Source: a virus. From it: a stretch of DNA of 21,991 nt. The notes under the pieces are model-generated. The model was not told the origin of the DNA. It saw nothing but the letters and a program-made list of their open reading frames with translations, and made no database searches. Within the stretch, counting starts at the first letter, position 1. Each line of letters starts with the position of its first letter. The stretch lies in IMG/VR virus record IMGVR_UViG_3300007533_000024, positions 1 through 21,991 of that record. One strand, 5' to 3'. A program made the position numbers and the translations under genes. Below are positions 1-17,202 of the stretch, in pieces.

Positions 1-463
1 GGGTTATGGCCAACGGTACATTCTTGGTGGTCTCGTCCTTGTTGCCCGGGTTCCAGAGGTATATCTGTCCGGACGTGGAGTCGTCCACCTGCCTGACCAG
101 CTCTATGCCCACGTAATTTGTGGTCCCCGGGGAGAAGCCCCCGTCAACCCTGTCGTTTGTTACGCTGTTTAATACCTCCGGGGACGTGCCTGGGGGTACT
201 ATGAAGAAGGTGCCGCTCTCGTTGGACTTCCCATGTAGCAGGGCCGAGTCCTCGACCAGCATCTGTAGACCCGAAGCTGACGACCCTATGGCCCCTGTCA
301 TGTTGAGCTTGAAACCCCTTATGACATAGCTCTCGCTGTCTCCTATGGTCAAGCCCGCCAGCAGCTCATCGAAATCGTTGCTTGTGGCCGACTCTATAGA
401 TTTGATGTGCGGGACATCAACCCTGGCTTGAGAAATAAAGTTAAATCTACGTCTTACAGACAT
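1..463 (-). CDS. Virion structural protein, probable tail fibre or baseplate periphery (partial, N-terminus only)
   Basis: The frame is open from an ATG at 461-463 to the left edge, giving 154 codons with no stop, so the C-terminus lies outside the window. The start MSVRRRFNFISQARVDVPH, followed by a segment about location in the particle (SIESATSNDFDELLAG) and then 'YVIRGFKLNM', resembles N-termini of virion and fibre proteins in large myoviruses; this is a recalled resemblance, not a search result. The visible part is rich in beta-type, Gly/Ser/Thr sequence. An AGAGG ribosome site lies about 8 bases upstream of the ATG. It is the first minus-strand gene after the plus-strand island at 634-2247 and diverges from it across 170 bases. 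Role as an exposed structural protein is inferred from context and composition. Confidence 0.6.
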   Translation of the reverse strand, partial: MSVRRRFNFISQARVDVPHIKSIESATSNDFDELLAGLTIGDSESYVIRGFKLNMTGAIGSSASGLQMLVEDSALLHGKSNESGTFFIVPPGTSPEVLNSVTNDRVDGGFSPGTTNYVGIELVRQVDDSTSGQIYLWNPGNKDETTKNVPLAIT

Positions 464-2077: not shown

Positions 2078-2247
2078 CAATACTGGACAGGGCATTTTTC
2101 GTCTCTGTGATATTCATTGTGCCATTCCTCGTGGACAAGACAGACGAGTACGGCTTCCTGGCGTGCTCTGCCGCAGCGGTGCTGTACGCGTGCGCAGCTG
2201 CCAATGTTAACAAATTTTTGGTCAGTTACTTCTATCGAGAGGATTAA
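2059..2247 (+). CDS. Small two-pass membrane protein, possible holin partner
   Basis: Encodes 62 residues from an ATG at 2059 within the end of the preceding gene, overlapping it by 19 bases; AAGGA directly before the ATG may help initiation. Two hydrophobic segments are seen: about residues 13-25 (FFVSVIFIVPFLV) and 33-55 (FLACSAAAVLYACAAANVNKFLV), with an acidic linker DKTDE between. Its 3' end overlaps the end of the convergent gene 2222-2650 by 26 bases. The overlapping pair of small membrane genes fits a holin/antiholin-type or pinholin unit, but the assignment rests on size and topology only. Confidence 0.55.
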   Translation: MAQEKVTILDRAFFVSVIFIVPFLVDKTDEYGFLACSAAAVLYACAAANVNKFLVSYFYRED

Positions 2248-2650
2248 AGGGTACGAGGCCCTCGAACTTGAAAGACACTCTGGCGATTCCCTTGGCTACT
2301 ACATTAAAACTCTCATCATCGTATGTGGTGCTGGGGACGTAGAGTATGTCCTCGCCAGTAGATCTGTCCGTTATCCTTAGGCTTATATAGGGTTCGTTCA
2401 ACACGTCTTTTATGAGGGCGGTGATCCCGCGGCCTTGAAGTCCGCCGCTATATCTTATGCGTATGCCGGTCACCGAACCCTTTACGGAAACCTTGGTCGG
2501 CGGTATCTCTTGGGGGAAGACCTGATCTATACCATATATGGCTGTCTTGCCCTTGTTTATGGTGTAGGATATCTGCTGAACCTCTTTGTAGAGCTTGCCG
2601 TTTATGTACAGTTTTATATCCGCGCCCCTTAGGACTATTGACTTAGACAT
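2222..2650 (-). CDS. Tail-tube-like virion protein (gp19/XkdM-like fold suspected)
   Basis: Encodes 142 residues. The start 'IVLRGADIKLYINGKLYKEVQQISYTINKG' and following SVKGSVTGIRIRYSGG have the alternating beta pattern seen in tube-type tail proteins, in which an 'INGK' hairpin precedes a strand pair; this is resemblance by eye. The ATG overlaps the stop of the upstream baseplate gene (TGATG), and AAGGA lies upstream. It is the last gene of this minus-strand segment, right after the baseplate-J partner, so it could be a tube initiator or a baseplate peripheral copy rather than the main tube. The 3' end is antisense to the last 26 bases of the convergent membrane gene. Confidence 0.6.
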   Translation of the reverse strand: MSKSIVLRGADIKLYINGKLYKEVQQISYTINKGKTAIYGIDQVFPQEIPPTKVSVKGSVTGIRIRYSGGLQGRGITALIKDVLNEPYISLRITDRSTGEDILYVPSTTYDDESFNVVAKGIARVSFKFEGLVPFNPLDRSN

Positions 2651-4320
2651 CAGCTTTCCTTGTTTATCTGCAGAGATTTAGGCCAATTATCTTCTCCCCA
2701 AACATACTCCTTCTCCGAGAACGGTGTGCCGTACTTGCCGAGACCTATATCGTTGGGATACAGTATCGTTATAACCAGATTTATGCCGGTGGCCGTCACG
2801 GACCTCACAAGGTCTTCGGCATACAGCCTTCCTGAAACACTGTCTGTTATGTAGAAGGGATAGTCCGAACCGTCCTTCGCGGGAACGTACGGGGAGTTCT
2901 GTATTATGAGAGAGACATCGGTACCGGCAGGGTGCACGTTCTTGAAGGTGTAGGCCGGGCTGACAAGTATAGAGCCGCCGGATGGCCTGGATATGTACGG
3001 TATCGGTCCCTCCTCGTGGGAAGTGCCATAGCCTATAACTATGTTGCCAGACTCGTCCGGAAACTCGGAGGAATCACTTACGCTTATTATATTGTCCGAG
3101 CCCGAGTTTATCTCTTGCTGTGTCTCCGTTGCAACGCCCCCTATCGTGTAGGGCTTGGTTAGGTCAAATATGTAAGGTCCGTTCTCATCTCCCGTGTTTG
3201 GCGGAGAGGTGGGGCCGTGCAGGTGAGCCGCGCCCTCCCTGCTCCTCCTAACCACCTTCGTAGTGGCCGGTAGGAATACCTCCAGCAGTCTGGACTCTGT
3301 CTGGTACGCGGCCGCGTACCTGATCTTACTGTTTATGGTCCTCCTGACAGGTGCGAAGAAAAGCATGCCGTCGAGCGTGCCCTGCAGCACAGTCTCTGTG
3401 ACTCCAAACGGGTTCTCGTACTCAAAGTACGCGTTGCCTACCGTGCCGCCCTGGACGTCCACTACCGTGAATGTGCCCTTGTTGTCTTCATCGAAAGAAG
3501 AACCGTATATGTTGACGTAGTCATTTACCTTTATTTTCCCCACTCCGGGGTCGGGTCCCCCAGACCAGGTGGCCCGCATGGTGCCGCTGGGCTGCTGTTC
3601 TACCGTCCACTGAGTGGTGGCCTCCCCGCTGGTAGGCCTTATAAGATCAAACCTTAGCTGATTCTGGGCCTTGCCGCCGAGGACCCTGACCGATGAGCTG
3701 GGACCTAAGGTATTGGAGAAAAGCTCCACATATCCGCCCAGACCGTCGTCCTTGGCTACAGCAGAGCCCCTTAGGCCCAGCCCGCGTATGTACCTGGTTA
3801 TAGCGTCAGCAACCTCCTGCGCGGTGGCTGCCGATATGTTGGTGAAGTCAGAAGACTTGAAAACTATCTCGAAACTGTCCTGATCATCAAACGACACTAT
3901 CAGCTTGTCACCGTCCTCCAGGTTGTATGTCTCTAGCTGGGTGCTCTTCATCGAAGCCTTCGTGAAGTCATCGCCGTACATTATATTTAGAAGCTTGTGT
4001 ATGAGATCCCTGACCTGTGTCCTGTTCTTCAGTTCTATGCCCAGCTCGCGGAATATATCGTCAGACAGACCTACCTTTGTGGGCCTCACTATGTTGTAAC
4101 CCGCCAGCCTAATGTCCAGGTACCTGTCCACGGCGGAGACTATGTACAGCTGCGCGTCCACGGCCTGCACGTTGTGTATCAGGTTCCTGCCGGTGGCCGC
4201 CATGGACTGCAGTATGGCGTCCGTGTTGGGCCCTTTTATGGAAGAGCTAAGGAAGCCCCTGAGCCTCTGAAACTCTTCCTCTATGTCTTTCTGCTTCTGC
4301 TCTTCGTCAGTTAACGCCAT
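2650..4320 (-). CDS. Baseplate structural protein, partner of the giant baseplate J protein
   Basis: Encodes 556 residues with an AGGTGG site 6 bases before the ATG. It starts 1 base after the baseplate J stop. Residues 1-120 are helical (baseplate wedge-like, with VDAQLYIVSAVDRYLDIRLAGYNI). Residues about 130-205 contain a 'TAQEVADAITRYI' alpha/beta module. Residues 262-289 contain the DYVNIYG...NKGTFTV module and residues 410-470 a 'SVSDSSEFPDESGNIVIG' module; both are also in baseplate J. The C-terminus (YPNDIGLGKYGTPFSEKEYVWG) is typical of phage baseplate proteins. Position right after baseplate J suggests the tail-protein-I/gp7 role of completing the wedge. Exact homology not established here. 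Confidence 0.65.
   Translation of the reverse strand: MALTDEEQKQKDIEEEFQRLRGFLSSSIKGPNTDAILQSMAATGRNLIHNVQAVDAQLYIVSAVDRYLDIRLAGYNIVRPTKVGLSDDIFRELGIELKNRTQVRDLIHKLLNIMYGDDFTKASMKSTQLETYNLEDGDKLIVSFDDQDSFEIVFKSSDFTNISAATAQEVADAITRYIRGLGLRGSAVAKDDGLGGYVELFSNTLGPSSSVRVLGGKAQNQLRFDLIRPTSGEATTQWTVEQQPSGTMRATWSGGPDPGVGKIKVNDYVNIYGSSFDEDNKGTFTVVDVQGGTVGNAYFEYENPFGVTETVLQGTLDGMLFFAPVRRTINSKIRYAAAYQTESRLLEVFLPATTKVVRRSREGAAHLHGPTSPPNTGDENGPYIFDLTKPYTIGGVATETQQEINSGSDNIISVSDSSEFPDESGNIVIGYGTSHEEGPIPYISRPSGGSILVSPAYTFKNVHPAGTDVSLIIQNSPYVPAKDGSDYPFYITDSVSGRLYAEDLVRSVTATGINLVITILYPNDIGLGKYGTPFSEKEYVWGEDNWPKSLQINKES
3463..3537 (-). repeat. NxGTFxV protein module, copy in the 556-residue protein
   Basis: Residues about 262-286 (KIKVNDYVNIYG...DEDNKGTFTVV) match the pattern GDxVxxxg...dxxNxGtFxV found five times in baseplate J. 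A preceding 'W' segment (TWSGG) also matches the copies at 5591-5662. Confidence 0.6.
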
Positions 4321-4321
4321 A

Positions 4322-7300
4322 CTAACCCACCTGGCTCACTATGATATCGTTTACGCTGTCTAAGACAAGTGTCTTCTCCGATGGCTGCACCGATATGACA
4401 TCATTGCTTGAATCGTACTGAGGACTATCGATGGATACAGCACGTACCCCGGGTATGGAGTTTACCGCACTCACTATGCTGGATATTGCTATCGAGCTTC
4501 CAACGTCGTTAGAGTTTATTAGGGAGGACACCACGTTCCTGACCTGCTCGGATATCCTCGCGAAAGGTATGCCGGTCTTCACGCGCACGCTTATAGAAAC
4601 CGTGATGCGCCTCTTGAGAGGTTCTTGAACAAATATCTCAGCGCCCGCGGCGCCCACGCCGGGGTACGTCACGTTATCCCTTGGATCTCCGTACACTATC
4701 CTGTTGGCCTCCGCTATCAGCCCTGTGTGGTATCTGTAGCTGTCCAATCCCCTCTTGATGCCGGACGGGAAGCTTAACTTTGACACGCTGCCCAGCTGCA
4801 CCCTGCCGACGCTGTTTATCTTATCGGCGTTCTCCTGGCTGTCAAAGATCAGGTCTAACCTGTTGGCGTTTCCTGTGTTCACGGCAGTGGTAACAACTTT
4901 CTTGAAGCCGCTATACTTGACGCCTTCTTCCACGAACAAAGAGGAACTGTTGTTCAGCAGCGGGGTCTCCTCCAAGGTGCTGAGATTGGTGCCTAGGATT
5001 ACTCTGGACTTGTCCACCACTTCTTCTATGGCGTACACGCCTACGTTCCCGGAACCTCCCAGGCTCTCTGTCGTTATGTTCAGCAGATCACCGGGCACGC
5101 TCGCCTCGTACTCCCTGAACTTCATGCCGGGAATGTGGAAATTGAACTCGTCCGTTATGGTTATCCCAGACTCGGGCGTGAAATAAGATTTGTGAAACTC
5201 CACAAAAGTGGTGTTGCCCGACTGTAGCGTATCCACGGAGAAGTTACCGCCTATGTTACCATCAGAGGCGTCAGTTGTGGTATCGTACCCGGCAGTGGTA
5301 ATCGTCACGGAAGAAGAAGACACCGTGGCCGAAAAGTCCCCCAGAGCGTTTATCACGTTCCTAGTCTTGGAGGCGACAGTGTCCGAGGAGTCCACAGCGT
5401 TTATCGCCACCATTACGCCGGTCTTACCGCCTATGGAAGGGTCGCCCCCGCCGCCGTCTACGTTGTACCACACGTAGTACTGCGTGGAGTCCCCTGCTGC
5501 GTTAAGCAAGAAGTAATCGCCGGTGGTAATTTCTGTGCCGGCAACACAGTTAGCAAGGGTTATCTGCTGCTGCTTGGATCTGCTCTTGAATACGCTCAGC
5601 TGACCCTGGTTACTCGCGTCAAAATCTGTTCCCAGGGTGGCCACGTCCCCTGCCTTCAAGGAACCGAAATCGGGCTCGGTTCCCGAACCGTCCCACTCAA
5701 CCCTCATATTTCCTTCTGCCGAGACAACCCTGTACGTTGTCATACCGTCGCCCCCAAAGGTCCTCAAATTCTCAACAACAGTAACCATCTCCTCCACGGC
5801 CTTGTCGTTCTCTATGTAGAAGGAATCACCATAGGTGCGTATGACCCTAAATGTTCCCTGATTAAGGATGTCGAAGGGCTCGCCCATGGTGACCGAATCC
5901 CCCTCCCTTACGAAGGCGGAGGCACTGAGCTCCGAGTCTGTGAACGACTCGCCCTCCAGCACTGGCCCACTAACCGCGGCGGCAACCCCGCTTCCGCTGT
6001 CCGTGTACGAAAGACTCTTGGTATCTAGCTGAGAAAGCGCGGTGATGGTTACTACATTTGAAGATGCCGTGGCGTTCACGCCCGTTATGACGGCCGCGAC
6101 CGCTGCCAGGTTCGCTGCCGTGTCGTCAGCAGTGGCGCCTGCACTAAAGTCAACGCCCTCTGTGAGCGTGGTGGAGCCTACCGTGAAGGAGTCGGCAGAT
6201 ACGTTCGCATTATTTGTTATGGTTATGGTCCCCTTAGGCAGGCTGGTGACGGCCTCGAAGTTTCTTATGATGGCAAGTTTGCCGTCGGAGCTGACCCCCA
6301 GTACCTCGAAGGTTCCATTGTTCTGTTCGTCCTGAAAACCGGAGAAAGTCACCCTGTCACCGAACGAAAGCTCCTTAAAGGACGCGTCACCGCTCTCTAT
6401 TGCATACGTCACCGTGCTCGTGGAGGTGTCCGAGAGCACACTCATGGTCCCACCCCCTGAGTCGTTAAGGTCGACGCTGTGCTGAAACCCAGGGCTTGCT
6501 GAAACACCGTCGTGACTGACGCACACGAATCTGCCCTGCTTCTCAACCCTGAATGTCCTGCCCTCGTCTCTTACGAAGTTCTTGTAAGATCCGAAGTGCC
6601 TCTCCCCGGTGGAGGCATTCGTTATGTCTATTGTTGTCTTCCCGGAAGTCGGGGTGTTAGGTCTTATCCTTACCCTATCGGTGGAGGAAAAGCCCGTTAT
6701 CTTGTTCTGCCTGTCTAGGGCGGTGAGCTCCAGCCACTGACCGCTGTACACACCCTTCCTGTTGGCCTCCAGTATGTTGGCTATCATGTAATCGTTGCCC
6801 ACCTTTATGGACGACCCCTCTACCGGAACTGACACCGAGTTACCAGATCCGCCTATCACCTGCACCGCTCCTCCGGAGCCCAAAACATCAGTGGTTAGCT
6901 CAATATTTTTGGAGCCGTCGTTGAGTTTTACAGACCCTAGGGTGGTGTAACCTGTAACGGCTAAGATGTTCAGGAAGTCCCGTATATGCTGGGCGGTGGT
7001 GGGCACCAGCCTTATCTCTGTGCCCTCGTTAAAGGAATAGCCGCTTGTGCTGGACACCTGCAAGGATTTCTTAAAGGTAAACTGTGGAGTGGAGGCCAGG
7101 TCGGAGGACAGCACCCAGTTGACACCGTCCACTAGGTATACTTTGTCATAAGAAAAGCCGCTGTCCTCTGCCGTGCTGTAGGTTATGACACCTGATCCGC
7201 TAGACCCCGAATCATCTAGTATAGAGGCCAGCACATAGTCAGACATATTGTTGGTCACGTAGTCGACAACTTCTTGGGCAGTGGTCGCGTCCGGCAAGTA

Positions 7301-10300
7301 GAATTGCACAGACCCGCTTACCAGAGTGTCCACCGCGCTCTCCGCCAGGGCCTCCCCGCTCTTCCTTGCAACCGTGAAGGAAGTGGGCGTGGGCGTGAAT
7401 CCCACCTCGTCGGACACCCTGAAGGTTCCTTTGTTCTGATCACTGAAGCCAGAAGAGTCCTTTATCGTAACATACTCACCTCCGGATAGGGAGCCAAGGG
7501 CAGGAGAGGTACCTGTGCCTGAGTAGCTGTACGTAACCTGGTCCACGCCGACCACCGGGGTGTTTGGCGTTATTGCAACGTTCCACTGGGTGGTCCCGTC
7601 TATTGACGTTGAAACGGCGTTGCCGGACTTTAGAACTATGTTTATATCCACTTCGCTGTCGACGGACACTGTGTGTGTTATGCCGAGGTTAGGTTGCGTA
7701 GGGTATTCGTAGGATACCTTGTACCTCTCGCCGCCGCTGCCCCAGATGGCCGCCCTGAACAAAACAGAGTTCTCTGTCCCTGAGGGATCGAGCACGTTCT
7801 TCGCCCTCATGAGGGCCTTGTAATTCTGGAAGTCGAAAGATGATCCGAAGCTGTCTACCAGCGATGCTGTGGGGCCCGACTCAGTGTCGTAAGCGTTAAA
7901 TGTTGTGTTGCTGACGGTGGCAGTCGTGTTGGTCGTAAGCTTCCTGTACAGGGGAAGCGTGAACGCTTTGTTTGTCGGGTCCGCGTCCAGCACCACCACA
8001 ACCTCGTCCTCGTGGCCGAAATTGAAAGGGCTGGAAAGGTAGTACCTGTCTCCGTCGCGCAGCCTCTTGATGTAGTCGTTCCTCTCTATGTTCAGCGTGA
8101 CAGGCCCTAGTGTTTCAACCTGCACCTCTTCGCCCTTTGCTATAACGTCGTCTGTGCTGGAGTAGGGGTTCAGCACTCCTAGCAAGAAGTTCGAGCCGTA
8201 GTCCTGTAGGTCGGTGTCAACGTCTACGGATGCTATGTAGGAGTCCGGTGGGTACGCGCTTTCTTCTGACGCGAACGCGCCGTGAACGAATATGGGGAAC
8301 TCGCCTTCGTACCCTCCGCTCTGGTAGAAGGATATGAGCGAAGTCTTGCTGCCCTGCTTGTCGTTTACCGAGAAGCCGAGGTTCTTGGCCGGGTCGTCGA
8401 AAGTTACCACGTGAACATACCCGTCTTCCGTCCTGGTGTTCGTGGATATGCTTATAACCTCGTCGTTGTCCACGTCCACCACGGCGCCGCTTAGCTGTGA
8501 CTGTATCTCAGAGGCCACGTCGTTTATGTTCTTGGTACCCGCGCCCACCTTGATCTTCTTGGGCGTCTTTTCAGACCTCAATACAACTATTCCCTCGTTA
8601 TACTCTACGAGCGCCTCGGCCGTGGCCAGGGCGTACTCCGTGGCGGTGACCCTGAACTCTAGGTAGTCATCATCCCTTGCCGTTACCCTGAACTCTCCCC
8701 TGTTAGTAGGAGACAGCTCTTCGGACCACACTATAACGTAGTCGCCCGCCTGGACGTTTGAGAAAACCCCAGAAGTCTCCGAGCTGAGCCTCAGCGTATT
8801 GGAACCCTCCTTTGTGACGTTCAAGAAGGTCCCGGCGACAAGGCCAGTGTTTATGTTGGTAGATACTGCGTCGTCCAGTACCAGCCATAGGTAGGCGTCT
8901 GAAGTTAACGATACCACGCCTCCCAGGATTTCCCTGGTATAAACAGTGCCGTTGGTGAGCTGAGAGCCTGCGGTCAGCTTATCGCCCCTGCTCAGGGGCT
9001 CCTTTAGCTTTATCTGCGCCGTGTTCCTGGATATGGTGTAATCGGCCTCTAGCCCGGTCGCTGCAAGCCCCTGGTTTGCTGTGAACATTCCCTTTGAGAC
9101 AAGGGTAGATGAAGGGTCTATCATTATGGCAGCACGGGTGCTGGTTCCGAGGTTGCTGTTTATTTTTATCTGCTCCCCGTCCACTTCTGCGGTTATGCCA
9201 GTCACCTTAGAGTTTATGACGTTCACCCAAGAAGACAGCGTGTTGGAGGAGGAAACGACGGAGTGGCTCCCCTCCTCTATGAAGTCGGAGTTTGTGAAGG
9301 TGTATGTTATGTAGGACGTGCCATCCACGGATATGGTTAGGGTGTCTCCGCTGGCTATGGAAGAGGACCAGACAGACTGCGCCTCGGTCCTCAGTATGGC
9401 CGACCTGCCGTTCTTGTTCAGCGGAACGTCGTTCTTGTACAGCCTAAGCGTCTCTATTTCATTTGTTGGGAAGCCCATGGCACCGTTCGCGTCTGTGCCG
9501 AAGGAGGGTTCTGTTATCTGTATGAACTCGTCGTCTTCGGTCTTTGCAGACAGCACAACCTTCCTGCCGTTATCGGATGTGGTGGCCTGGAACAGGAGAT
9601 CAAAGTTTGCGTTTATTGAGGCCACTATCTCAAAGGCGGTGGCCGCGCCCTCGCTGACAAAGTCCCCTGAGACGAAGGTGTGCTCGCTGACGTTCCCGCC
9701 TACTAGCACGGCTATCCTGTCGCCGACGCTAACGTCGAAGGGTACCGAGTTGGAAGATTCTATGAAGGCCTTGGCTACGGATGTCTGACTTCCGCCTGTG
9801 GCTAGCTGAAAGCTGTCCTCGCCGCCCAGGGCGGAGTCCACTATGAACTCGAGCCCCACGCCTGTGGTCTTGGCCTCGTAGCCCTCTCCGTTGTCCACGT
9901 AGAGCACGGTGTTGTCTGTGGTTACTATCTGGTTGGACGTTATGGTCGCCGCTTCGTCCTTCGCGGTGGCGCCTCTTGTAGCACTTTCTATGGCCAAGGG
10001 CGTGCCCAGGCCTTTGCTCAACCTGGCGGACTTGATTCTTGTCCTAAGGGACTCGTTCGTCTCCTCGTCTCTGCCCGTGCTGAACTTCTCGGTGTTTATA
10101 ACCGTGGCACCCGAGAACGGCGGCGAGGCAAAATCTGTGATGGCCCCGCTTGGAACGTTGTTCCTGGAACCCGTCTTCTGGGACACCACTGGTACCTGCG
10201 TTATGGTGTTCTCTCCGTCCAACAGCGTAACGTTCTCTGTTGTGGAAAAACGTATGTCCTCGGCCGCGCCCGAGGAGGGGGCCAGCACAACCGTGCCAGC

Positions 10301-10867
10301 AGGGACATTCCTATTTCCACCCTGGGACAGTATCACGGACTCTCCCCTGTTGTGGAACTTGGTTGTGGGGTTGTCTAGTGTTATCTCCCAATAGCTGCCT
10401 ACCTGCTGTACGTTGCTGTAAGATATGGGCCCTTCTATGTTGGGAGTTGTCCTGCCCAGGTATACAGCACCGCTAGCCGGGAAGTCAGAGGCGTCCGAAA
10501 CCTTTATCGTGGTGGAGCCCACGTTCGGGGGCTTGCTGCCGGTGTAAACCTTGGTCACTATCTTATCGAAAGAAGAATCGCCTAATGTCACAGTGCCTGT
10601 GGTTACGCTGGCGGAAAGTATGGTCACCCTCTCGTCTCGCGCTATCTTTCTCAGGGCCTCGCCCTTCGCGCGGTCCACGTTCTGGTCCTTTAGAATCTGG
10701 AATATATCACCAGTGGCCCTGTAGACCATCTGCGCGTTCGTCTCTAGAAAAGAGAGAAGGGGGCCGCCCGGTATAAGGTCGTTGCCTCCGGACCTCTTCG
10801 CTTCGTAGGTTGATATAGCATCGCCTAGAATCTGCTCGTAAGATCTTACTTCTGGTGTCCTAGCCAT
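4322..10867 (-). CDS. Giant baseplate J-like (gp6-like) wedge protein, 2181 residues
   Basis: The N-terminus to about residue 300 is baseplate-J type: ILGDAISTYEAKRSGG with a helical start (LSFLETNAQMVYRATGDIFQILKDQNVDRAKG), then VPAGTVV, FSTTENVTLL, 'VVSQKTGSRNNVPSGAITDF' and DEETNESLRTRIK. The C-terminus from about 2040 returns to the family: RYHTGLIAEANRIVYGDPRD, then 'RRITVSISVRVKTG' and a final 'IVSAVNSIPGVRAVSID'. Family members are usually about 300-650 residues; here roughly 1700 residues lie between the halves. That insert is beta-rich and carries five NxGTFxV modules and about seven 'tAxEi' alpha/beta modules. A GAGGA site lies 4 bases before the ATG. It forms the wedge ring of the baseplate; the insert probably forms radial arms or binds fibres (inference). 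Stop TAG at 4322 leaves 1 base before the next gene. Confidence 0.85.
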   Translation of the reverse strand: MARTPEVRSYEQILGDAISTYEAKRSGGNDLIPGGPLLSFLETNAQMVYRATGDIFQILKDQNVDRAKGEALRKIARDERVTILSASVTTGTVTLGDSSFDKIVTKVYTGSKPPNVGSTTIKVSDASDFPASGAVYLGRTTPNIEGPISYSNVQQVGSYWEITLDNPTTKFHNRGESVILSQGGNRNVPAGTVVLAPSSGAAEDIRFSTTENVTLLDGENTITQVPVVSQKTGSRNNVPSGAITDFASPPFSGATVINTEKFSTGRDEETNESLRTRIKSARLSKGLGTPLAIESATRGATAKDEAATITSNQIVTTDNTVLYVDNGEGYEAKTTGVGLEFIVDSALGGEDSFQLATGGSQTSVAKAFIESSNSVPFDVSVGDRIAVLVGGNVSEHTFVSGDFVSEGAATAFEIVASINANFDLLFQATTSDNGRKVVLSAKTEDDEFIQITEPSFGTDANGAMGFPTNEIETLRLYKNDVPLNKNGRSAILRTEAQSVWSSSIASGDTLTISVDGTSYITYTFTNSDFIEEGSHSVVSSSNTLSSWVNVINSKVTGITAEVDGEQIKINSNLGTSTRAAIMIDPSSTLVSKGMFTANQGLAATGLEADYTISRNTAQIKLKEPLSRGDKLTAGSQLTNGTVYTREILGGVVSLTSDAYLWLVLDDAVSTNINTGLVAGTFLNVTKEGSNTLRLSSETSGVFSNVQAGDYVIVWSEELSPTNRGEFRVTARDDDYLEFRVTATEYALATAEALVEYNEGIVVLRSEKTPKKIKVGAGTKNINDVASEIQSQLSGAVVDVDNDEVISISTNTRTEDGYVHVVTFDDPAKNLGFSVNDKQGSKTSLISFYQSGGYEGEFPIFVHGAFASEESAYPPDSYIASVDVDTDLQDYGSNFLLGVLNPYSSTDDVIAKGEEVQVETLGPVTLNIERNDYIKRLRDGDRYYLSSPFNFGHEDEVVVVLDADPTNKAFTLPLYRKLTTNTTATVSNTTFNAYDTESGPTASLVDSFGSSFDFQNYKALMRAKNVLDPSGTENSVLFRAAIWGSGGERYKVSYEYPTQPNLGITHTVSVDSEVDINIVLKSGNAVSTSIDGTTQWNVAITPNTPVVGVDQVTYSYSGTGTSPALGSLSGGEYVTIKDSSGFSDQNKGTFRVSDEVGFTPTPTSFTVARKSGEALAESAVDTLVSGSVQFYLPDATTAQEVVDYVTNNMSDYVLASILDDSGSSGSGVITYSTAEDSGFSYDKVYLVDGVNWVLSSDLASTPQFTFKKSLQVSSTSGYSFNEGTEIRLVPTTAQHIRDFLNILAVTGYTTLGSVKLNDGSKNIELTTDVLGSGGAVQVIGGSGNSVSVPVEGSSIKVGNDYMIANILEANRKGVYSGQWLELTALDRQNKITGFSSTDRVRIRPNTPTSGKTTIDITNASTGERHFGSYKNFVRDEGRTFRVEKQGRFVCVSHDGVSASPGFQHSVDLNDSGGGTMSVLSDTSTSTVTYAIESGDASFKELSFGDRVTFSGFQDEQNNGTFEVLGVSSDGKLAIIRNFEAVTSLPKGTITITNNANVSADSFTVGSTTLTEGVDFSAGATADDTAANLAAVAAVITGVNATASSNVVTITALSQLDTKSLSYTDSGSGVAAAVSGPVLEGESFTDSELSASAFVREGDSVTMGEPFDILNQGTFRVIRTYGDSFYIENDKAVEEMVTVVENLRTFGGDGMTTYRVVSAEGNMRVEWDGSGTEPDFGSLKAGDVATLGTDFDASNQGQLSVFKSRSKQQQITLANCVAGTEITTGDYFLLNAAGDSTQYYVWYNVDGGGGDPSIGGKTGVMVAINAVDSSDTVASKTRNVINALGDFSATVSSSSVTITTAGYDTTTDASDGNIGGNFSVDTLQSGNTTFVEFHKSYFTPESGITITDEFNFHIPGMKFREYEASVPGDLLNITTESLGGSGNVGVYAIEEVVDKSRVILGTNLSTLEETPLLNNSSSLFVEEGVKYSGFKKVVTTAVNTGNANRLDLIFDSQENADKINSVGRVQLGSVSKLSFPSGIKRGLDSYRYHTGLIAEANRIVYGDPRDNVTYPGVGAAGAEIFVQEPLKRRITVSISVRVKTGIPFARISEQVRNVVSSLINSNDVGSSIAISSIVSAVNSIPGVRAVSIDSPQYDSSNDVISVQPSEKTLVLDSVNDIIVSQVG
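5591..5662 (-). repeat. NxGTFxV module, copy 5 of baseplate J
   Basis: Residues about 1736-1759 (SLKAGDVATLG...DASNQGQLSVF). The core F is replaced by L. A 'VEWDGSGTEP' segment precedes it, matching the copy in the neighbouring 556-residue protein (ATWSGGPDP). Confidence 0.6.
5843..5911 (-). repeat. NxGTFxV module, copy 4 of baseplate J
   Basis: Residues about 1653-1675 (VREGDSVTMG...DILNQGTFRV), followed by a strand ending in YIEN. Confidence 0.6.
6302..6370 (-). repeat. NxGTFxV module, copy 3 of baseplate J
   Basis: Residues about 1500-1522 (LSFGDRVTFSG...DEQNNGTFEVL), following a TSTVTYAIESGD strand. Confidence 0.6.
7415..7489 (-). repeat. NxGTFxV module, copy 2 of baseplate J
   Basis: Residues about 1127-1151 (SLSGGEYVTIKD...DQNKGTFRVSD), following the VTYSYSGTGTSPALG strand. 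Confidence 0.6.
8678..8755 (-). repeat. NxGTFxV module, copy 1 of baseplate J
   Basis: Residues about 705-730 (NVQAGDYVIVW...LSPTNRGEFRVTA), followed by a strand ending in LEFRV. Confidence 0.6.
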
Positions 10868-10909
10868 TTAATCCTCTTCTCATGCTATTAAGATTCATTA
10901 ATCGACAAC

Positions 10910-13489
10910 CTATATATCTACCTTGAAATCTATTGGAAACAGGCCGTTGCTTCCCGCCAGTCTTACGCTCATGCTTATCTCCAACACCGGAGCCTTTATC
11001 TTGAAAACCAGCCTATCCAGACTGCTGAACCTGGGGTCCTGCGTTATCATCTGGTTGACGTCGTTAAAAATATCCTTGGCCGCTATATCGGCAACAGACG
11101 TGCCTGGTGTTATTCCAAGGCCGTACTCCGGGTGCCTTATCAGGGACTTCTTCTTGGTCACTATCATGAGCTTGAGCGCCTGTATGAGGTTGGTCATGCC
11201 GTTTGCCAGCATGATCTCCCCGCGAGCGTCGGTGGCGACGTCCCCGTCGTCTGTGAGCAGCCAGTTGACCCTGCTTATGCCTGTGAGCTCGTCTTCCTGA
11301 AGGTAGGGCACCTTGAAGGTGTTGTCCTGCTCGGGCGGCTCCGCCGTGCTGGGAACGAATATTGTGTTCTGTGAGTTTACCGTCCCAGGCAGGTAGGCTA
11401 TCATCCTGGCGCTGTCCGCCGTCGTAAGCTGGTCCAGGTCGGCCAACCCGTTAACGGTGATAAGGTAAGTGCTGTCCGATATCTTCTCTATATCGCTTAT
11501 CTTTCTGGTGAACTGAGGAACCGTGTTGCTGCCTAGTGTAACCCTCTGTCCGATGTAAATATCCTCGTCAGAATCTACGGTGAACTGCCTACCGTTGCCA
11601 TTTGATAGGAACTGCCTCACAGTGCCTTCCTCGTCTATATAGGGGCTCTTGAGGTTATTGAGGGTGGCTATCTCTATCCACCTGTCTGGGTCGCCCAGGT
11701 ACCTGGACGCTATCTGCTCCATGGTCCTGCCGTACGGAACGGGAACCAGTGTCTTGCTAGATGAAAGCGTGAAGTCTATCCCGGCCTCGTCCGCGAGGCC
11801 GCCCACGTACTGCATAGGGCTCACGGTGTTGTCGGTGTCCAGGGACTTGTTGGCGGTCAGGTAGTCCATTCCCTGTATAACTTCCCACAGCGCCACCAAG
11901 AACTCGTTCTCCTCAACCGTCATGTCTATTACCCTGTTCCTGGGCGCGGGTCTGTCGTACGTATCGGAATACGTCTGGTCAGCCGCTCCGTACTGGTTGG
12001 ACACCCCCAGGGCGAGGTCTTTAATAGTCTCTTTGATGTCTCTCAGATCTTCGACAGTGTAGGCCCTGACTGTCTCGACCTCATTGTCTATGGCGTCTTG
12101 CTGGTTCTGGTTCAGGTTCAAGATCCCCAGGTCTATTGCGTTGAAGAACTCGAAGCTGCCTTCTGGTTCGCTGAATATGTTGTTGGCGGGGTCGCTCTCT
12201 ACTAGGTCCTTACGCTCCGTGCCCAGGGCCCCGGCCTTAACCTGGTTGTTGGAGAGCCCCTCGTTGCTCTTCCTCTCCTGCCTCAGAGATTCGAAGGTCC
12301 CGCCCGGCAGCAGGTTCTGGAAATCGTCCACCGCATCTTCTAGTATAGAAAAGCTCTCTTTTATCGAGGATTTGTAGTCCTCCACCAGCTGCCTGGGTAG
12401 ATCTGCGACGGACTTAGCGACGCCGACAGAGTCCTTCACGAACAGAGAGGCCTGCCTGAGGGCGTTCAGCGGCTTCTGGAAGTCAGACCTGACCGCCTTT
12501 ATGAGGTCCAAGGAGCTGGCAGCCAGGCGTCTCGCCTCGTTTATGGAACCCAGCACCCTCTGAAGGGTGTTTGAGTTTATCTCGGTGGCACCTGGCGCCG
12601 GAGCCGGGACTGCTGGACCGAGCCTTATCCTCTTCCAGGCCTTAAGCTGCAGCTTATACAGCCACTCGGACGGCCTGTTGTGATTCTGGTGAGAGTCGTG
12701 AAGAACAGGCGTAACCACGTAGCTCTCGTTTCTCTTCGGTATATCAAAAACCAGCCGCAAATCCTTGTTTTTGGGGTCTTTCTTGGCTATGGCGTACTGC
12801 TCCAGGAACTTGTCCAATAGCTGGGCCTGGTAGTAGCCTGTCTGCTCCTCAATCGTGCCCTTGGGCTCCGGGGACCTCATCGCCTGTGCCGGGTGCTTGC
12901 CGCCGGCCACCCTCTGAAGCCTGTTCACAGATCCCGCCACGTTGGACAGCGCCTCAAAGCTGCCGCTGAATAGGGTGCTAGCTATGGAGGGGGTGGAGTC
13001 CGGGGGTGCGCTTATATTCGGCCTGCCAGGCCACACGCCCATAGTGCCTGAGAGGTTTATGATCTTGAACTTTACACCGTTGTGCTCTTCAAGGATTCCC
13101 TGCAATGTACTGGAGGTCCTTATGGCAAAGGGGTCCAGCACGGATAGTGTCTGCGGCGTTATGGGGAAGTTGAATATCCAGGAGTTACCTATGGGCTCTA
13201 CGAGTATGGTGGTCGAGTCCTCTTTCCTCGTGACACTGGCCTCCGCCGGCACGGCATCGCCGCCGTTTACAACCTCTTTGGTCGTTATGTCTATGACCAT
13301 TAGCCTGTACGGGAAGAAGCCGTTCCAGTTCTCGCCTTTTATAAGAGGTGCTTGAAAAAACACATCTTTTTGGTCCTGCCACGGGGTAGAACCCGTGGCG
13401 GCGCCCTTATCCTCCACGAAACCAGACTGATCCGTGGAAGAGGATATGGCCTTCTTACTCTCCTCTAGCATATCATCGAAAATGCTCAT
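10910..13489 (-). CDS. Baseplate wedge protein with LysM (gp53-like) and C-terminal gp25-like domains
   Basis: Encodes 859 residues; ATG at 13487-13489 with AGAGGT four bases upstream. Residues about 95-155 hold a beta segment (WIFNFPITPQTLSVLDPFA, then LEEHNGVKFKIINLSGTMGV) known to me from large-phage LysM proteins. Residues 300-500 are helical and probably a coiled-coil linker. Residues about 578-625 form a LysM-type domain (LVPVPYGRTMEQIASRYLGD, then WIEIATLNNLKSPYI). Residues about 745-859 are gp25-like (IRHPEYGLGITPGTSVADIA...RFSSLDRLVFKIKAP...MSVRL), a sheath-like wedge domain that starts sheath assembly. In T4 these are the separate proteins gp53 and gp25. Next downstream, 42 bases away, is baseplate J (gp6-like), matching the usual gp25 to gp6 order. 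A single chain with both functions is plausible. Confidence 0.8.
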   Translation of the reverse strand: MSIFDDMLEESKKAISSSTDQSGFVEDKGAATGSTPWQDQKDVFFQAPLIKGENWNGFFPYRLMVIDITTKEVVNGGDAVPAEASVTRKEDSTTILVEPIGNSWIFNFPITPQTLSVLDPFAIRTSSTLQGILEEHNGVKFKIINLSGTMGVWPGRPNISAPPDSTPSIASTLFSGSFEALSNVAGSVNRLQRVAGGKHPAQAMRSPEPKGTIEEQTGYYQAQLLDKFLEQYAIAKKDPKNKDLRLVFDIPKRNESYVVTPVLHDSHQNHNRPSEWLYKLQLKAWKRIRLGPAVPAPAPGATEINSNTLQRVLGSINEARRLAASSLDLIKAVRSDFQKPLNALRQASLFVKDSVGVAKSVADLPRQLVEDYKSSIKESFSILEDAVDDFQNLLPGGTFESLRQERKSNEGLSNNQVKAGALGTERKDLVESDPANNIFSEPEGSFEFFNAIDLGILNLNQNQQDAIDNEVETVRAYTVEDLRDIKETIKDLALGVSNQYGAADQTYSDTYDRPAPRNRVIDMTVEENEFLVALWEVIQGMDYLTANKSLDTDNTVSPMQYVGGLADEAGIDFTLSSSKTLVPVPYGRTMEQIASRYLGDPDRWIEIATLNNLKSPYIDEEGTVRQFLSNGNGRQFTVDSDEDIYIGQRVTLGSNTVPQFTRKISDIEKISDSTYLITVNGLADLDQLTTADSARMIAYLPGTVNSQNTIFVPSTAEPPEQDNTFKVPYLQEDELTGISRVNWLLTDDGDVATDARGEIMLANGMTNLIQALKLMIVTKKKSLIRHPEYGLGITPGTSVADIAAKDIFNDVNQMITQDPRFSSLDRLVFKIKAPVLEISMSVRLAGSNGLFPIDFKVDI

Positions 13490-13567
13490 GGGTACCTCTG
13501 TTTAAAGATTTTGATGTGGCTTTAGTATTAATCTTTACTATAAATCCTAGCAAATATAGGAGAAAAC
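13490..13567. promoter_or_regulatory. Divergent intergenic region with shared motif and inverted repeat
   Basis: Seventy-eight bases separate minus gene 10910-13489 from plus gene 13568-13933. They contain the 13-base motif (13499-13511), an inverted repeat of 8 bp (TAAAGATT at 13503-13510 and AATCTTTA at 13530-13537, 19-base loop), and an AT-rich TATAAATC (13539-13546) about 21 bases before the plus-strand ATG. TATAAATC differs in one base from the T4 late promoter box, but its relevance is unproven. A promoter for the plus genes is likely here; one for the minus genes is possible. Confidence 0.45.
13499..13511. promoter_or_regulatory. Shared 13-base intergenic motif, copy 2
   Basis: TGTTTAAAGATTT, identical to 503-515. 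Read on the minus strand it runs directly into the AGAGGT ribosome site of gene 10910-13489. It overlaps the left arm of the 13503-13537 inverted repeat, which could be an operator. Confidence 0.45.
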
Positions 13568-13933
13568 ATGTCAAAGATGGATATTTACCTAAGCCTCAAA
13601 GTGTATGACAGCAACTGTGATAAGTCAGAGGACTGCGTAAATATAAGAGGCGCCGACTCCGGGGTCCTCAAGAAAGAGAAAGTCACAATCCCGGCGTCCG
13701 GCTCGATCAGTGTACTCACGTCGGGCACCGCTGTGGACAGGAGTGTCTTTGTCAGGTCTGACTCTGACTTCCAGGTAGACGTGAACTCTCTAGGAGCGCA
13801 AGACGTGAAGAGAGTCCCATTTGGGACTTCTTTCCAGGACGCACTATACCTCGCAAGACTGAGTCTGACTTCTCTAACCATAACAAACCCATCTTCCACA
13901 GATGAAATTGTGGTAGAATACACGCTCTCATGA
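13568..13933 (+). CDS. Small beta-rich protein, possible virion component
   Basis: Encodes 121 residues from an ATG at 13568, with AGGAG 6 bases upstream, which also argues against the antisense reading. The sequence alternates hydrophobic and polar residues (KVTIPASGSISVLTSG, VFVRSDSDFQVDV, SLTSLTITNPSSTDEIVVEYTLS), typical of a small beta-sandwich found in phage decoration or fibre-tip proteins. There is no signal peptide. It is cotranscribed with the next gene: its stop overlaps the next ATG (ATGA at 13930-13933). Family not recognised; virion role is inferred from beta content and location only. Confidence 0.6.
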   Translation: MSKMDIYLSLKVYDSNCDKSEDCVNIRGADSGVLKKEKVTIPASGSISVLTSGTAVDRSVFVRSDSDFQVDVNSLGAQDVKRVPFGTSFQDALYLARLSLTSLTITNPSSTDEIVVEYTLS

Positions 13934-14721
13934 GAACCCTGCTAAGATCCCTTGCCTTGGTGTTCATGTTTATAATAAGCCAGGGCTGTGCCACGATAGA
14001 CGTAACACCCAGCATGATAAACCTGGAACATGGATACTGGGTGGACAAGCAGTTCGTCAAATATCTTACTTCTTTCAAGAAAGACAGCAAAGGCAAAGTA
14101 AAAAGACTCAACACACACGTTGTCTTCGGCGACCTCTCCTACAGCACCGGAGAAGACAAAAGCAACACAATAGGTCTGTGCAACTTCTTTACCAGGAGGA
14201 TAACAATAGACAGAGGGTGGTGGGAGGAGCACAGCTCTGTGCTCAAGAGAGAAGAACTGATATACCACGAGCTGGGGCACTGCCTGCTTTTCAGGGGGCA
14301 TACCGCACTGAAAAAGTGTGACGGTTCGATATCATACTATATAGATAAGACCCTGATATCTTTGGGTATAGTGGAAGAAAAAGGATACCTAGAAGACGGG
14401 TGCCCGAAGAGCTACATGCACCCGTACTCTCTGAAGCTAGATTGCATAGCTAAACACAGGAAGTACTACATAAAAGAGATGTTCGGATCCAGTGATGAGA
14501 GGATAATAAACGAAGAAATAAACCAAGCCTACTCGCAAGTATTTAAGGGCGCGTGCCCAAAAACCATTAAGGAGAACAAATCCGGCGAACCCTGGAACAA
14601 CACCGACGAGAATAACATGCTATATGCAAAGAAGAGGTGCCCCAAGGTCACCGGACTGCCTTGCCTTAAAAAATTTACAAAGAAGGAGCCGCAGGTCTAC
14701 TGGGCGATATGCGGGCACTAG
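13930..14721 (+). CDS. Secreted or lipoprotein zinc metallopeptidase-like protein (HELGH)
   Basis: Encodes 263 residues. Residues 1-20 form a hydrophobic signal (LLRSLALVFMFIISQGC); C20 may be lipidated although Ser at -3 is atypical for a lipobox. Residues 113-117 are HELGH, the zinc-binding and catalytic motif, with another His at 124 (HELGHCLLFRGH), and residues 161-166 (SYMHPY) resemble the Met-turn of metzincin-like enzymes. This HExxH, His at +7 and 'S-x-M-x-P' layout is like small secreted lipoprotein peptidases I recall from other bacteria. The C-terminal half has several cysteines (C158, C172, C209, C237, C245, C261) that could form disulfides, consistent with export. It shares CTAG with the convergent gene 14718-16025, so both stops lie in four bases. 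Substrate unknown. Confidence 0.7.
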   Translation: MRTLLRSLALVFMFIISQGCATIDVTPSMINLEHGYWVDKQFVKYLTSFKKDSKGKVKRLNTHVVFGDLSYSTGEDKSNTIGLCNFFTRRITIDRGWWEEHSSVLKREELIYHELGHCLLFRGHTALKKCDGSISYYIDKTLISLGIVEEKGYLEDGCPKSYMHPYSLKLDCIAKHRKYYIKEMFGSSDERIINEEINQAYSQVFKGACPKTIKENKSGEPWNNTDENNMLYAKKRCPKVTGLPCLKKFTKKEPQVYWAICGH

Positions 14722-16452: not shown

Positions 16453-16664
16453 TGTATGATCACCTCTTCTATCCTCACGCTTTCCAGCTGAGACTGGTAT
16501 ATATCAAGCTTTATAGGGTCCTGCGTCTTGTCGATCTCGTACTTGAGTGACTTCACGTAGTTGTGGAATATCTCCTCGCAGTCTTGGCGGTTCCAGTTGT
16601 ACTTACCGGACACCATCAGTGGGGAGTCACCTACCAGTACCATATATCTCTTAGATTCAGCCAC
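16449..16664 (-). CDS. Hypothetical small protein (71 residues, GTG start)
   Basis: Reads AESKRYMVLVGDSPLMVSGKYN from a GTG at 16664. An AGGA lies about 6 bases upstream, supporting this start. The N-terminal part looks beta-like, and residues 25-71 are helical (CEEIFHNYVKSLKYEIDKTQ, then a strand RIEEVIIH). It overlaps the membrane-protease-like gene by 8 bases and hands over to the TTG gene downstream. Family not recognised. Confidence 0.6.
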   Translation of the reverse strand: MAESKRYMVLVGDSPLMVSGKYNWNRQDCEEIFHNYVKSLKYEIDKTQDPIKLDIYQSQLESVRIEEVIIH

Positions 16665-17160
16665 AGTACATCCTGAGCATTATGAGAGCACACATGTCAA
16701 ACAAGAAGTGAAGGTATATCAGCGTAAGCATTCCCTTGTTGTGGGCGAGCCACATGAACACGAAGAGCACAGAGGTCGCGGCCAGGGCACCGTACAAGCC
16801 CTGGTACAGATGACCCGCACCAAAAATCAAGGACATGACTATAGCTATGGGTATCCAAAATTTCTTTGACACTCCTCTCCTGAGCATGTACACGACCGGG
16901 GCCGAGAAAACCATATCCTCCCACCACACAGTGAACGGCACCCACAAGGGTATCTTATGTGTTATGCCACACATAAGCGACGGGGACACGCCCGCTGCAT
17001 TCATTAACACATATTTAGCCGCCATCAGCATTGGGATGAATATGCTTATCTGTACAAACTCTTTCCTGCTCAGCTTGAACATATCTCTGTCCAGGCCTAC
17101 AAAGAACACCAGAAGCAAAAAGCCCAAAAACCAGCTAGGCGCCATACTAAGCGCATCCAC
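16657..17160 (-). CDS. Membrane protein resembling CPBP/CAAX-type intramembrane protease
   Basis: The GTG at 17160 is chosen (167 residues) since GGAGG lies 6 bases upstream; a TTG at 17166 sits too close to that site. About five transmembrane segments are seen, starting with SWFLGFLLLVFFVGL. Three spaced motifs match the CPBP family: E81-D82 in WWEDMVF (the family has EE followed by R), F113 to H117 in FGAGHLYQG, and H151 to D155 in LHFLFD. Replacement of the second E by D and loss of the usual R make activity uncertain. CPBP proteins are used for peptide processing or, in some phages and plasmids, for protection against other agents; this is family knowledge. The gene sits between the spike and small structural genes, overlapping the next by 8 bases. 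It is unlike its tail-protein neighbours and may act on the host envelope. Confidence 0.7.
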   Translation of the reverse strand: MDALSMAPSWFLGFLLLVFFVGLDRDMFKLSRKEFVQISIFIPMLMAAKYVLMNAAGVSPSLMCGITHKIPLWVPFTVWWEDMVFSAPVVYMLRRGVSKKFWIPIAIVMSLIFGAGHLYQGLYGALAATSVLFVFMWLAHNKGMLTLIYLHFLFDMCALIMLRMYCG

Positions 17161-17202
17161 GATCAACCTCCCAAATGTCTAAACTGTACATACTTTGCCT
17201 CA

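Follow-up and report, generated by a model that had tools for sequence, protein, structure and literature searches.

A Giant Baseplate J Protein with a Modular Insert in a Phage Related to Myxococcus Phage Mx1

Introduction

The J protein of the phage baseplate is usually a compact part of the structural core. What, then, is to be made of a J gene whose product appears to be interrupted by about 1,700 residues? Such a gene lies in the stretch of DNA analyzed here, a 21,991-base IMG/VR fragment (hereafter, the window) that represents only part of a phage genome. The locus raises the questions of whether it encodes a single J protein, how exceptional such a protein is, and what the additional residues might do. 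We report that the phage, a relative of Myxococcus phage Mx1, has a contractile tail and that the gene encodes the J (gp6-type) protein of its wedge.

Results

A J Fold Split by an Insert

The gene occupies the minus strand as an uninterrupted open reading frame of 2181 amino acids plus a stop codon, whereas the plus strand of the same interval is closed and full of stops. A first-pass annotation, made from the letters of the sequence, had given the ends and the length of the frame exactly but had left its strand unstated. The frame is not a product of chance, as full-length homologues exist that are 27–59% identical to its product. Its main parts are as follows:

4322..10867, minus strand: giant baseplate J gene (open reading frame; Pfam; PHROG_6; about 37% identity and synteny to the Mx1 J)
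9833..10867, minus strand: N-terminal part of the J core, residues 1–345 (Pfam, PHROG_6, model, and matches to structures and PDB profiles)
4748..9832, minus strand: insert, residues about 346–2040 (between PHROG_6 positions 286 and 296; mostly beta in models)
4325..4747, minus strand: C-terminal part of the J core, residues 2041–2181, the rest of domain III (PHROG_6; Foldseek match to 5ces; identity)

Both ends of the product belong to the Baseplate_J/gp6 wedge family. In the N-terminal part, residues 10–78 are predicted to form a helical bundle and residues about 87–181 a beta wing, and domain III starts at residues about 300–345. Pfam Baseplate_J matched residues 184–282 (E = 6.1e-12; score 45.8 bits, cut-off 21.1), and PHROG_6 ("baseplate wedge subunit") matched the N half with E = 1.4e-24, the best stretch being residues 186–346, which align with PHROG_6 positions 162–286. 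PDB profile matches were to phi812, phiCD508, Bas63, and diffocin. In the C half, residues 2064–2169 correspond to PHROG_6 positions 296–398 (E = 1.2e-7), a match that was also found in 16 of 16 homologues, and a Foldseek search with the C-half model matched the C-terminal domain of pyocin J (5ces; TM 0.73 of the target). Pfam gave no match in the C half of the window J itself, and the C half alone gave no match to the PDB by sequence; the C end of one homologue (L004) matches positions 190–254 of Pfam Baseplate_J. Residues 2041–2181 are the best-conserved part of the whole protein (identity 0.52–0.68 in the family alignment), and structure comparison matched the core fold at both ends to solved J proteins. 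As shown by this comparison of sequence and structure, the whole J fold is present, divided in two by the insert. The two halves had been recognized in the first pass at residues 1–300 and 2040–2181, boundaries that were correct to within tens of residues, and a search for Baseplate_J in both ends, which it had called for, located the family at the N end by Pfam and PHROG_6 and at the C end by PHROG_6 and structure, not by Pfam.

PHROG_6 positions 286 and 296 adjoin in the family, and the window residues that match them, 346 and 2064, are about 1,720 apart; the insertion point is thereby defined. When the protein is aligned to phi812 ORF62 and phiCD508 and compared with the description of the XM1 domains (PMC10457771), this point would fall within domain III, after the first strands (about 300–345) and before the remainder of the domain (2041–2181). 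The chain would therefore leave domain III after residue 345 or so, build some 1,700 mostly beta residues, and re-enter at about residue 2041 to finish the domain.

A Family of Giant J Proteins

The sole full-length relative in an annotated phage collection was Myxococcus phage Mx1. A scan of viral contigs with the single sequence returned nothing, whereas queries built from alignments found 96 relatives for one J end and 201 for the other. From the DNA fetched we recovered 89 distinct open reading frames with both J ends, window included (median 2,182 amino acids), among which there was no short J. About 87 other distinct giant homologues range from roughly 1,760 to 2,930 amino acids (median about 2,180); the lower figure leaves aside an entry of 1711 amino acids (L137) that was excluded as partial, with 47% of core columns filled. 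The largest J (L021) measures 2,947 amino acids from stop to stop and 2,932 from the first start codon. This J, at positions 5642–14440, is also the most divergent member found; the genome of its species is about 1.8 Mb, and it carries five copies of the module B6 described below.

Four relatives with a frame that matches only the N-terminal J end are not short J proteins. In three of them J lies in two overlapping frames (L013, 1012–6868; L020, 9001–16492; L076, 1347–6600), and the fourth (L087) ends at a contig end. Other baseplate genes of L020 are split too, which suggests sequencing errors, with programmed frameshifting as an alternative. Since the split frames show that frame errors occur in such contigs, they could be taken as a hint that the window frame is itself an assembly or fusion artefact in which two genes, or J and a fibre gene, were wrongly joined. 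Against this stand the other intact versions, roughly 87 distinct ones drawn from many samples, the cultured phage Mx1, and the J homology at both ends of a single frame. The family of intact relatives already rules out a frame fusion, and we give an artefact next to no chance of being the explanation.

How exceptional is this size? Our survey of Baseplate_J in 299 Pseudomonadota genomes found 78 places, with a median open frame of 385 amino acids. Sixty-three of these were at most 650 amino acids long and two exceeded 1,500, both of which were members of the Mx1-type family. By that type we mean a protein with the J ends, an insert longer than 1,000 residues at PHROG_6 positions 286/296, and similarity to the Mx1 J over its full length, all of which were found in the window J. 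Few J proteins generally are giant, and for phages at large such a J is unusual, yet it is universal in the Mx1-type family as sampled, and standard in that lineage. The first-pass annotation had expected few J proteins with so large an insert. This holds across J proteins generally, but not within related phages, in which versions of about 2,000 residues are routine, as judged by the giant homologues, Mx1, and UniProt entries; a unique enlargement of the window J is ruled out by the family.

The window J and that of a 168.5-kb contig (L014) form a pair in a J-core tree, are 59% identical over the whole protein, and fall inside a 64-member clade that is distinct from the Mx1 side. The window J is, in short, quite a typical member of the giant variant. 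The contigs of several relatives are 150–182 kb long, similar to the 169.6 kb of Mx1, and so the window phage probably belongs to the same size class.

Neighboring Genes

J sits in a contractile-tail cluster: it adjoins a phrog_975 baseplate protein, and synteny is kept with Mx1 and with other contigs. The neighbors in this cluster are as follows:

10910..13489, minus strand: upstream baseplate protein, 859 amino acids (phrog_975, E = 1e-22; Mx1 homologue of 806 amino acids)
2650..4320, minus strand: downstream wedge partner, 556 amino acids, gp7/I-like by position (modules in common with J; Mx1 homologue with a Kelch propeller)
2222..2650, minus strand: conserved virion protein of the same cluster, 142 amino acids (phrog_985, E = 9e-7; 40% to Mx1)
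2..463, minus strand: fibre-like protein, N-terminal 154 amino acids, cut by the window edge (Mx1 and relatives)

The 859-residue protein has a LysM/gp53-like region at about 584–622 and a sheath-initiator/gp25-like C end at about 747–842 (for which Pfam Sheath_initiator gave only E = 0.15), and it seems to be a fusion of a gp53-like LysM protein with a gp25-like sheath initiator. In L021 two genes (319 and 527 amino acids) take the place of its homologue, and L020 encodes the C end in an open reading frame of its own (112 amino acids). The downstream 556-residue protein has no detectable homology to the J core, and its gp7-like role therefore stays positional. In relatives the fibre-like protein is 660 to more than 1,690 amino acids long and often carries module B6.

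Two genes for putative proteases are also found in the window. At 13930–14721 (plus strand) is a weak match to a phage metallopeptidase (PF18894, E = 0.001) with the motif YHELGHCL and a lipoprotein-like start, homologues of which adjoin the J cluster in L008, L011, L012, L014, and L017. Within the tail cluster, at 16657–17166 (minus strand), is a gene for a membrane protein of 169 amino acids that resembles CAAX/Rce1-like proteases (PF02517, E = 3e-6, over the cut-off); L017 has a gene at the same place whose product is 28% identical to it. The recurrence of the metallopeptidase-like gene near J would suit a model in which the giant product is a precursor that is cleaved after assembly, leaving an ordinary mature J and the insert as a separate chain. 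The residues C-terminal of the insert complete the J fold, however, so that the chain would have to be cut twice and the parts of J joined non-covalently, and no cleavage site was identified. We judge such processing to be very improbable.

A Conserved Base and Repeated Modules

Two AlphaFold models, of residues 1–1195 and 1000–2181, were built from 16–17 sequences (mean pLDDT 67.9 and 68.6); single domains in them are usable, and the arrangement of the domains, including any outward direction, is not. Strands dominate both models, and the insert of about 1,700 residues is mostly beta in them. Over the family, residues 301–660 are conserved at the level of the core, residues 661–1440 are less conserved, and residues 1441–1920 are optional. 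Profile–profile comparison with HHalign revealed a repeated module of 45–95 residues, here called A, with the motif GD..N.GTFxV, which is present in at least four copies and probably six; plain BLAST within J gave no significant repeats. The elements identified are as follows:

8888..9832, minus strand: insert base, residues 346–660 (conserved like the J core; mean identity to the window 0.48–0.57 over the family)
8606..8761, minus strand: probable A module, residues 703–754 (HHalign 76%)
7340..7621, minus strand: A module, residues 1083–1176 (HHalign 97% (96.8%) to 1700–1779; blastp to neighbor)
6188..6373, minus strand: A module, residues 1499–1560 (HHalign 89% and 85%)
5798..5920, minus strand: A module, residues 1650–1690 (HHalign 80–89%)
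5531..5770, minus strand: A module, residues 1700–1779 (HHalign 97%)
4958..5095, minus strand: possible A module, residues 1925–1970 (HHalign 58–61% alone, 79% in a longer alignment)

By blastp, a copy related to residues 1083–1176 was detected in the wedge gene downstream of J as well. The secondary structure prediction shows a repeated arrangement of a helix and then a hairpin, at about residues 411–452, 544–583, 781–823, 1292–1338, 1580–1622, and 1828–1859, which we take to be a putative second type of module. The first-pass description of some 1,700 residues of beta-rich, repeated modules between the J halves thus agrees with the models and with the HHalign repeats (up to 96.8% probability). 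No solved relatives of the insert were found by sequence, and the window protein has no Pfam domain except J and no known receptor-binding domain.

Exchange of Domains in the Distal Insert

Two optional modules lie in the distal part of the insert:

5954..6241, minus strand: optional module, residues 1543–1638 (45 of 89 members by alignment occupancy)
5210..5581, minus strand: optional module B6, residues 1763–1886 (46 of 89 members by alignment occupancy)

On the J-core tree the first has undergone at least seven changes and B6 at least eight, with tree labels (B6/B5) that were taken from alignment occupancy and may err where Kelch domains are misaligned (L018, L086, and L094). The first module occurs also in two homologues of neighboring genes. 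B6 was located in 59 distinct J frames, 16 wedge-partner frames, and 31 fibre-like frames, and in no other open reading frame of the DNA fetched, which was centered on J. Copies from J and from the fibre-like gene are up to 49% identical (E down to 5e-25). B6 has no credible solved relatives. It weakly matches the tail sheath family phrog_165 (E = 7e-6), which suggests that the same domain decorates some sheath proteins and that B6 may be a generic decoration domain. The sheath link touches L144, L162, L033, and L159 (fibre-like and related genes).

Other domains have entered the J proteins of relatives at several sites. Kelch propellers follow the equivalent of window residue 741 in L067, L071, L073, and L095 and lie near residues 1424–1661 in L018 and L094, and Ice_binding (PF11999) follows residue 903 in L070 (E = 6e-31) and residue 1634 in L052 (E = 1e-37). 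The Kelch propeller of Mx1 is encoded by the gene after J, the counterpart of which in L019 has Kelch and a Laminin_G-like lectin fold. These adhesion-type domains are found in relatives only, not in the insert of the window J. As judged by sequence comparison, residues about 1440–1920 appear to be a plug-in region, whose modules would be gained, lost, and exchanged with the neighboring wedge gene and the fibre-like gene.

Could the insert instead be mainly architectural, widening the baseplate periphery in the role that separate peripheral proteins (gp8, gp10, and gp11) play in T4, with the domain changes as neutral drift of stalk or decoration modules? Consistent with this, conservation over the first 315 insert residues equals that of the J core, the wedge partner gene has A modules too, and there are links to tail sheaths: a weak match of B6 to tail-sheath families, and matches of the C-half model to sheath chains of A-1(L) and Milano over about 105–125 columns. 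But a fixed scaffold would not need optional distal modules, or Kelch and Ice_binding domains that were inserted independently at several places, and a module in common with the fibre-like gene speaks for a surface location. We regard a mainly architectural role as rather unlikely.

Discussion

We lean toward the view that the insert is an outward modular arm for adhesion or surface contact, for fibre docking, or for both. Four features point to an outward contact surface: the base is conserved, the tip is exchangeable, the cargo found in relatives is of the adhesion type, and wedge and fibre genes have a module in common. The first-pass annotation had likewise proposed arms that reach receptors or hold fibres, a proposal that gains indirect support from the adhesion-type domains of relatives, the module in common with the fibre gene, and the A-1(L) precedent (PMC10966104). 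It is conceivable, if far from assured, that the Mx1-type J goes further and is a receptor-binding, domain-swapping display platform of 12 arms, in which Kelch propellers, ice-binding-like domains, and B6 are traded with the neighboring wedge and fibre genes.

How would such arms be arranged? Solved wedges are heterotrimers of two J subunits and one partner, six of which surround the hub (PMC10457771 and PMC10966104), a composition that the trimer model suggested in the first pass does not fit; in this family the two J copies of a wedge would touch through domain III. By analogy, we infer 12 J subunits per baseplate: each of six wedges would contain two J subunits and one product of the next gene, with 12 insert arms radiating from the baseplate. 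The base of the insert, being conserved, probably packs against the wedge, and the distal part (about 1440–1920) would most likely face outward and serve for host contact or as a dock for fibres.

Giant J proteins have already been deposited in GenBank (Mx1) and in UniProt, with automatic "J-like" annotation only. We found no description of J enlargement or domain exchange in the open-access literature, and the announcement of the Mx1 genome passes over the J protein (PMC10720576). What is new here is the distal insert as a site of domain exchange. A lineage in which every J found has about 1,300 or more extra, partly exchangeable residues would be evidence that contact with the host can shift into the wedge. 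If J is indeed a display platform, then host range would evolve not in the fibres alone but in the wedge too. The question can be approached experimentally, since Mx1 grows in culture on Myxococcus xanthus, to the cell poles of which it is reported to adsorb (PMC6070905).

Comparison with Known Systems

The closest known counterpart is the J-like protein of Mx1 (WNM70274.1 in OR576727.2), which has both J ends and a giant insert in 1,925 amino acids, is about 37% identical to the window J, and lies in the same gene order: an 806-residue LysM/initiator-like protein, J, a 982-residue wedge partner, a 140-residue protein, and a 663-residue fibre-like protein. In Mx1 a block of genes on the opposite strand separates the 806-residue protein from J, and its J lacks the window modules at about 1462–1649 and 1699–1913 and has three other insertions. 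The best structural matches of the C-half model were J-like proteins of uncultured Caudovirales phages in UniProt (A0A6J5L250, A0A6J5KUV1, and A0A6J7WUL1; E = 6e-40 to 2e-18), which, being stored as pieces of 927–1306 amino acids, are evidently giant as well.

Ordinary J wedge proteins have the same core fold at both ends, as in phi812 ORF62 (348 amino acids), phiCD508 gp65 (378), XM1 gp16 (404), A-1(L) gp31 (390), Mu J, P1 J, and T4 gp6, but they have no insert at the place of that of the window J, or only about 100 residues elsewhere. For the overall architecture of T4 gp6 (660 residues), Foldseek gave matches to its chains with a probability of 0.1–0.6. The wedge proteins of the eCIS particles AFP/PVC, Algoriphagus, and Anabaena are enlarged too, to about 1,000–1,200 amino acids, or about half the size of the window J; some gave weak Foldseek matches to its models, and we found no sequence similarity between them and the window insert.

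Wedge proteins that contact the host or hold a tail fibre are known. In phage K8 a variant of the wedge protein binds the LPS core (PMC9887876). In A-1(L) an insertion of about 100 residues (residues 81–180, a different place from that of the window insert) reaches outward in one J copy and holds the long tail fibre, whereas in the other copy it sits in the hub (PMC10966104). As the position of the insertion differs between the two copies in A-1(L), the two giant-insert copies of each wedge may differ as well.
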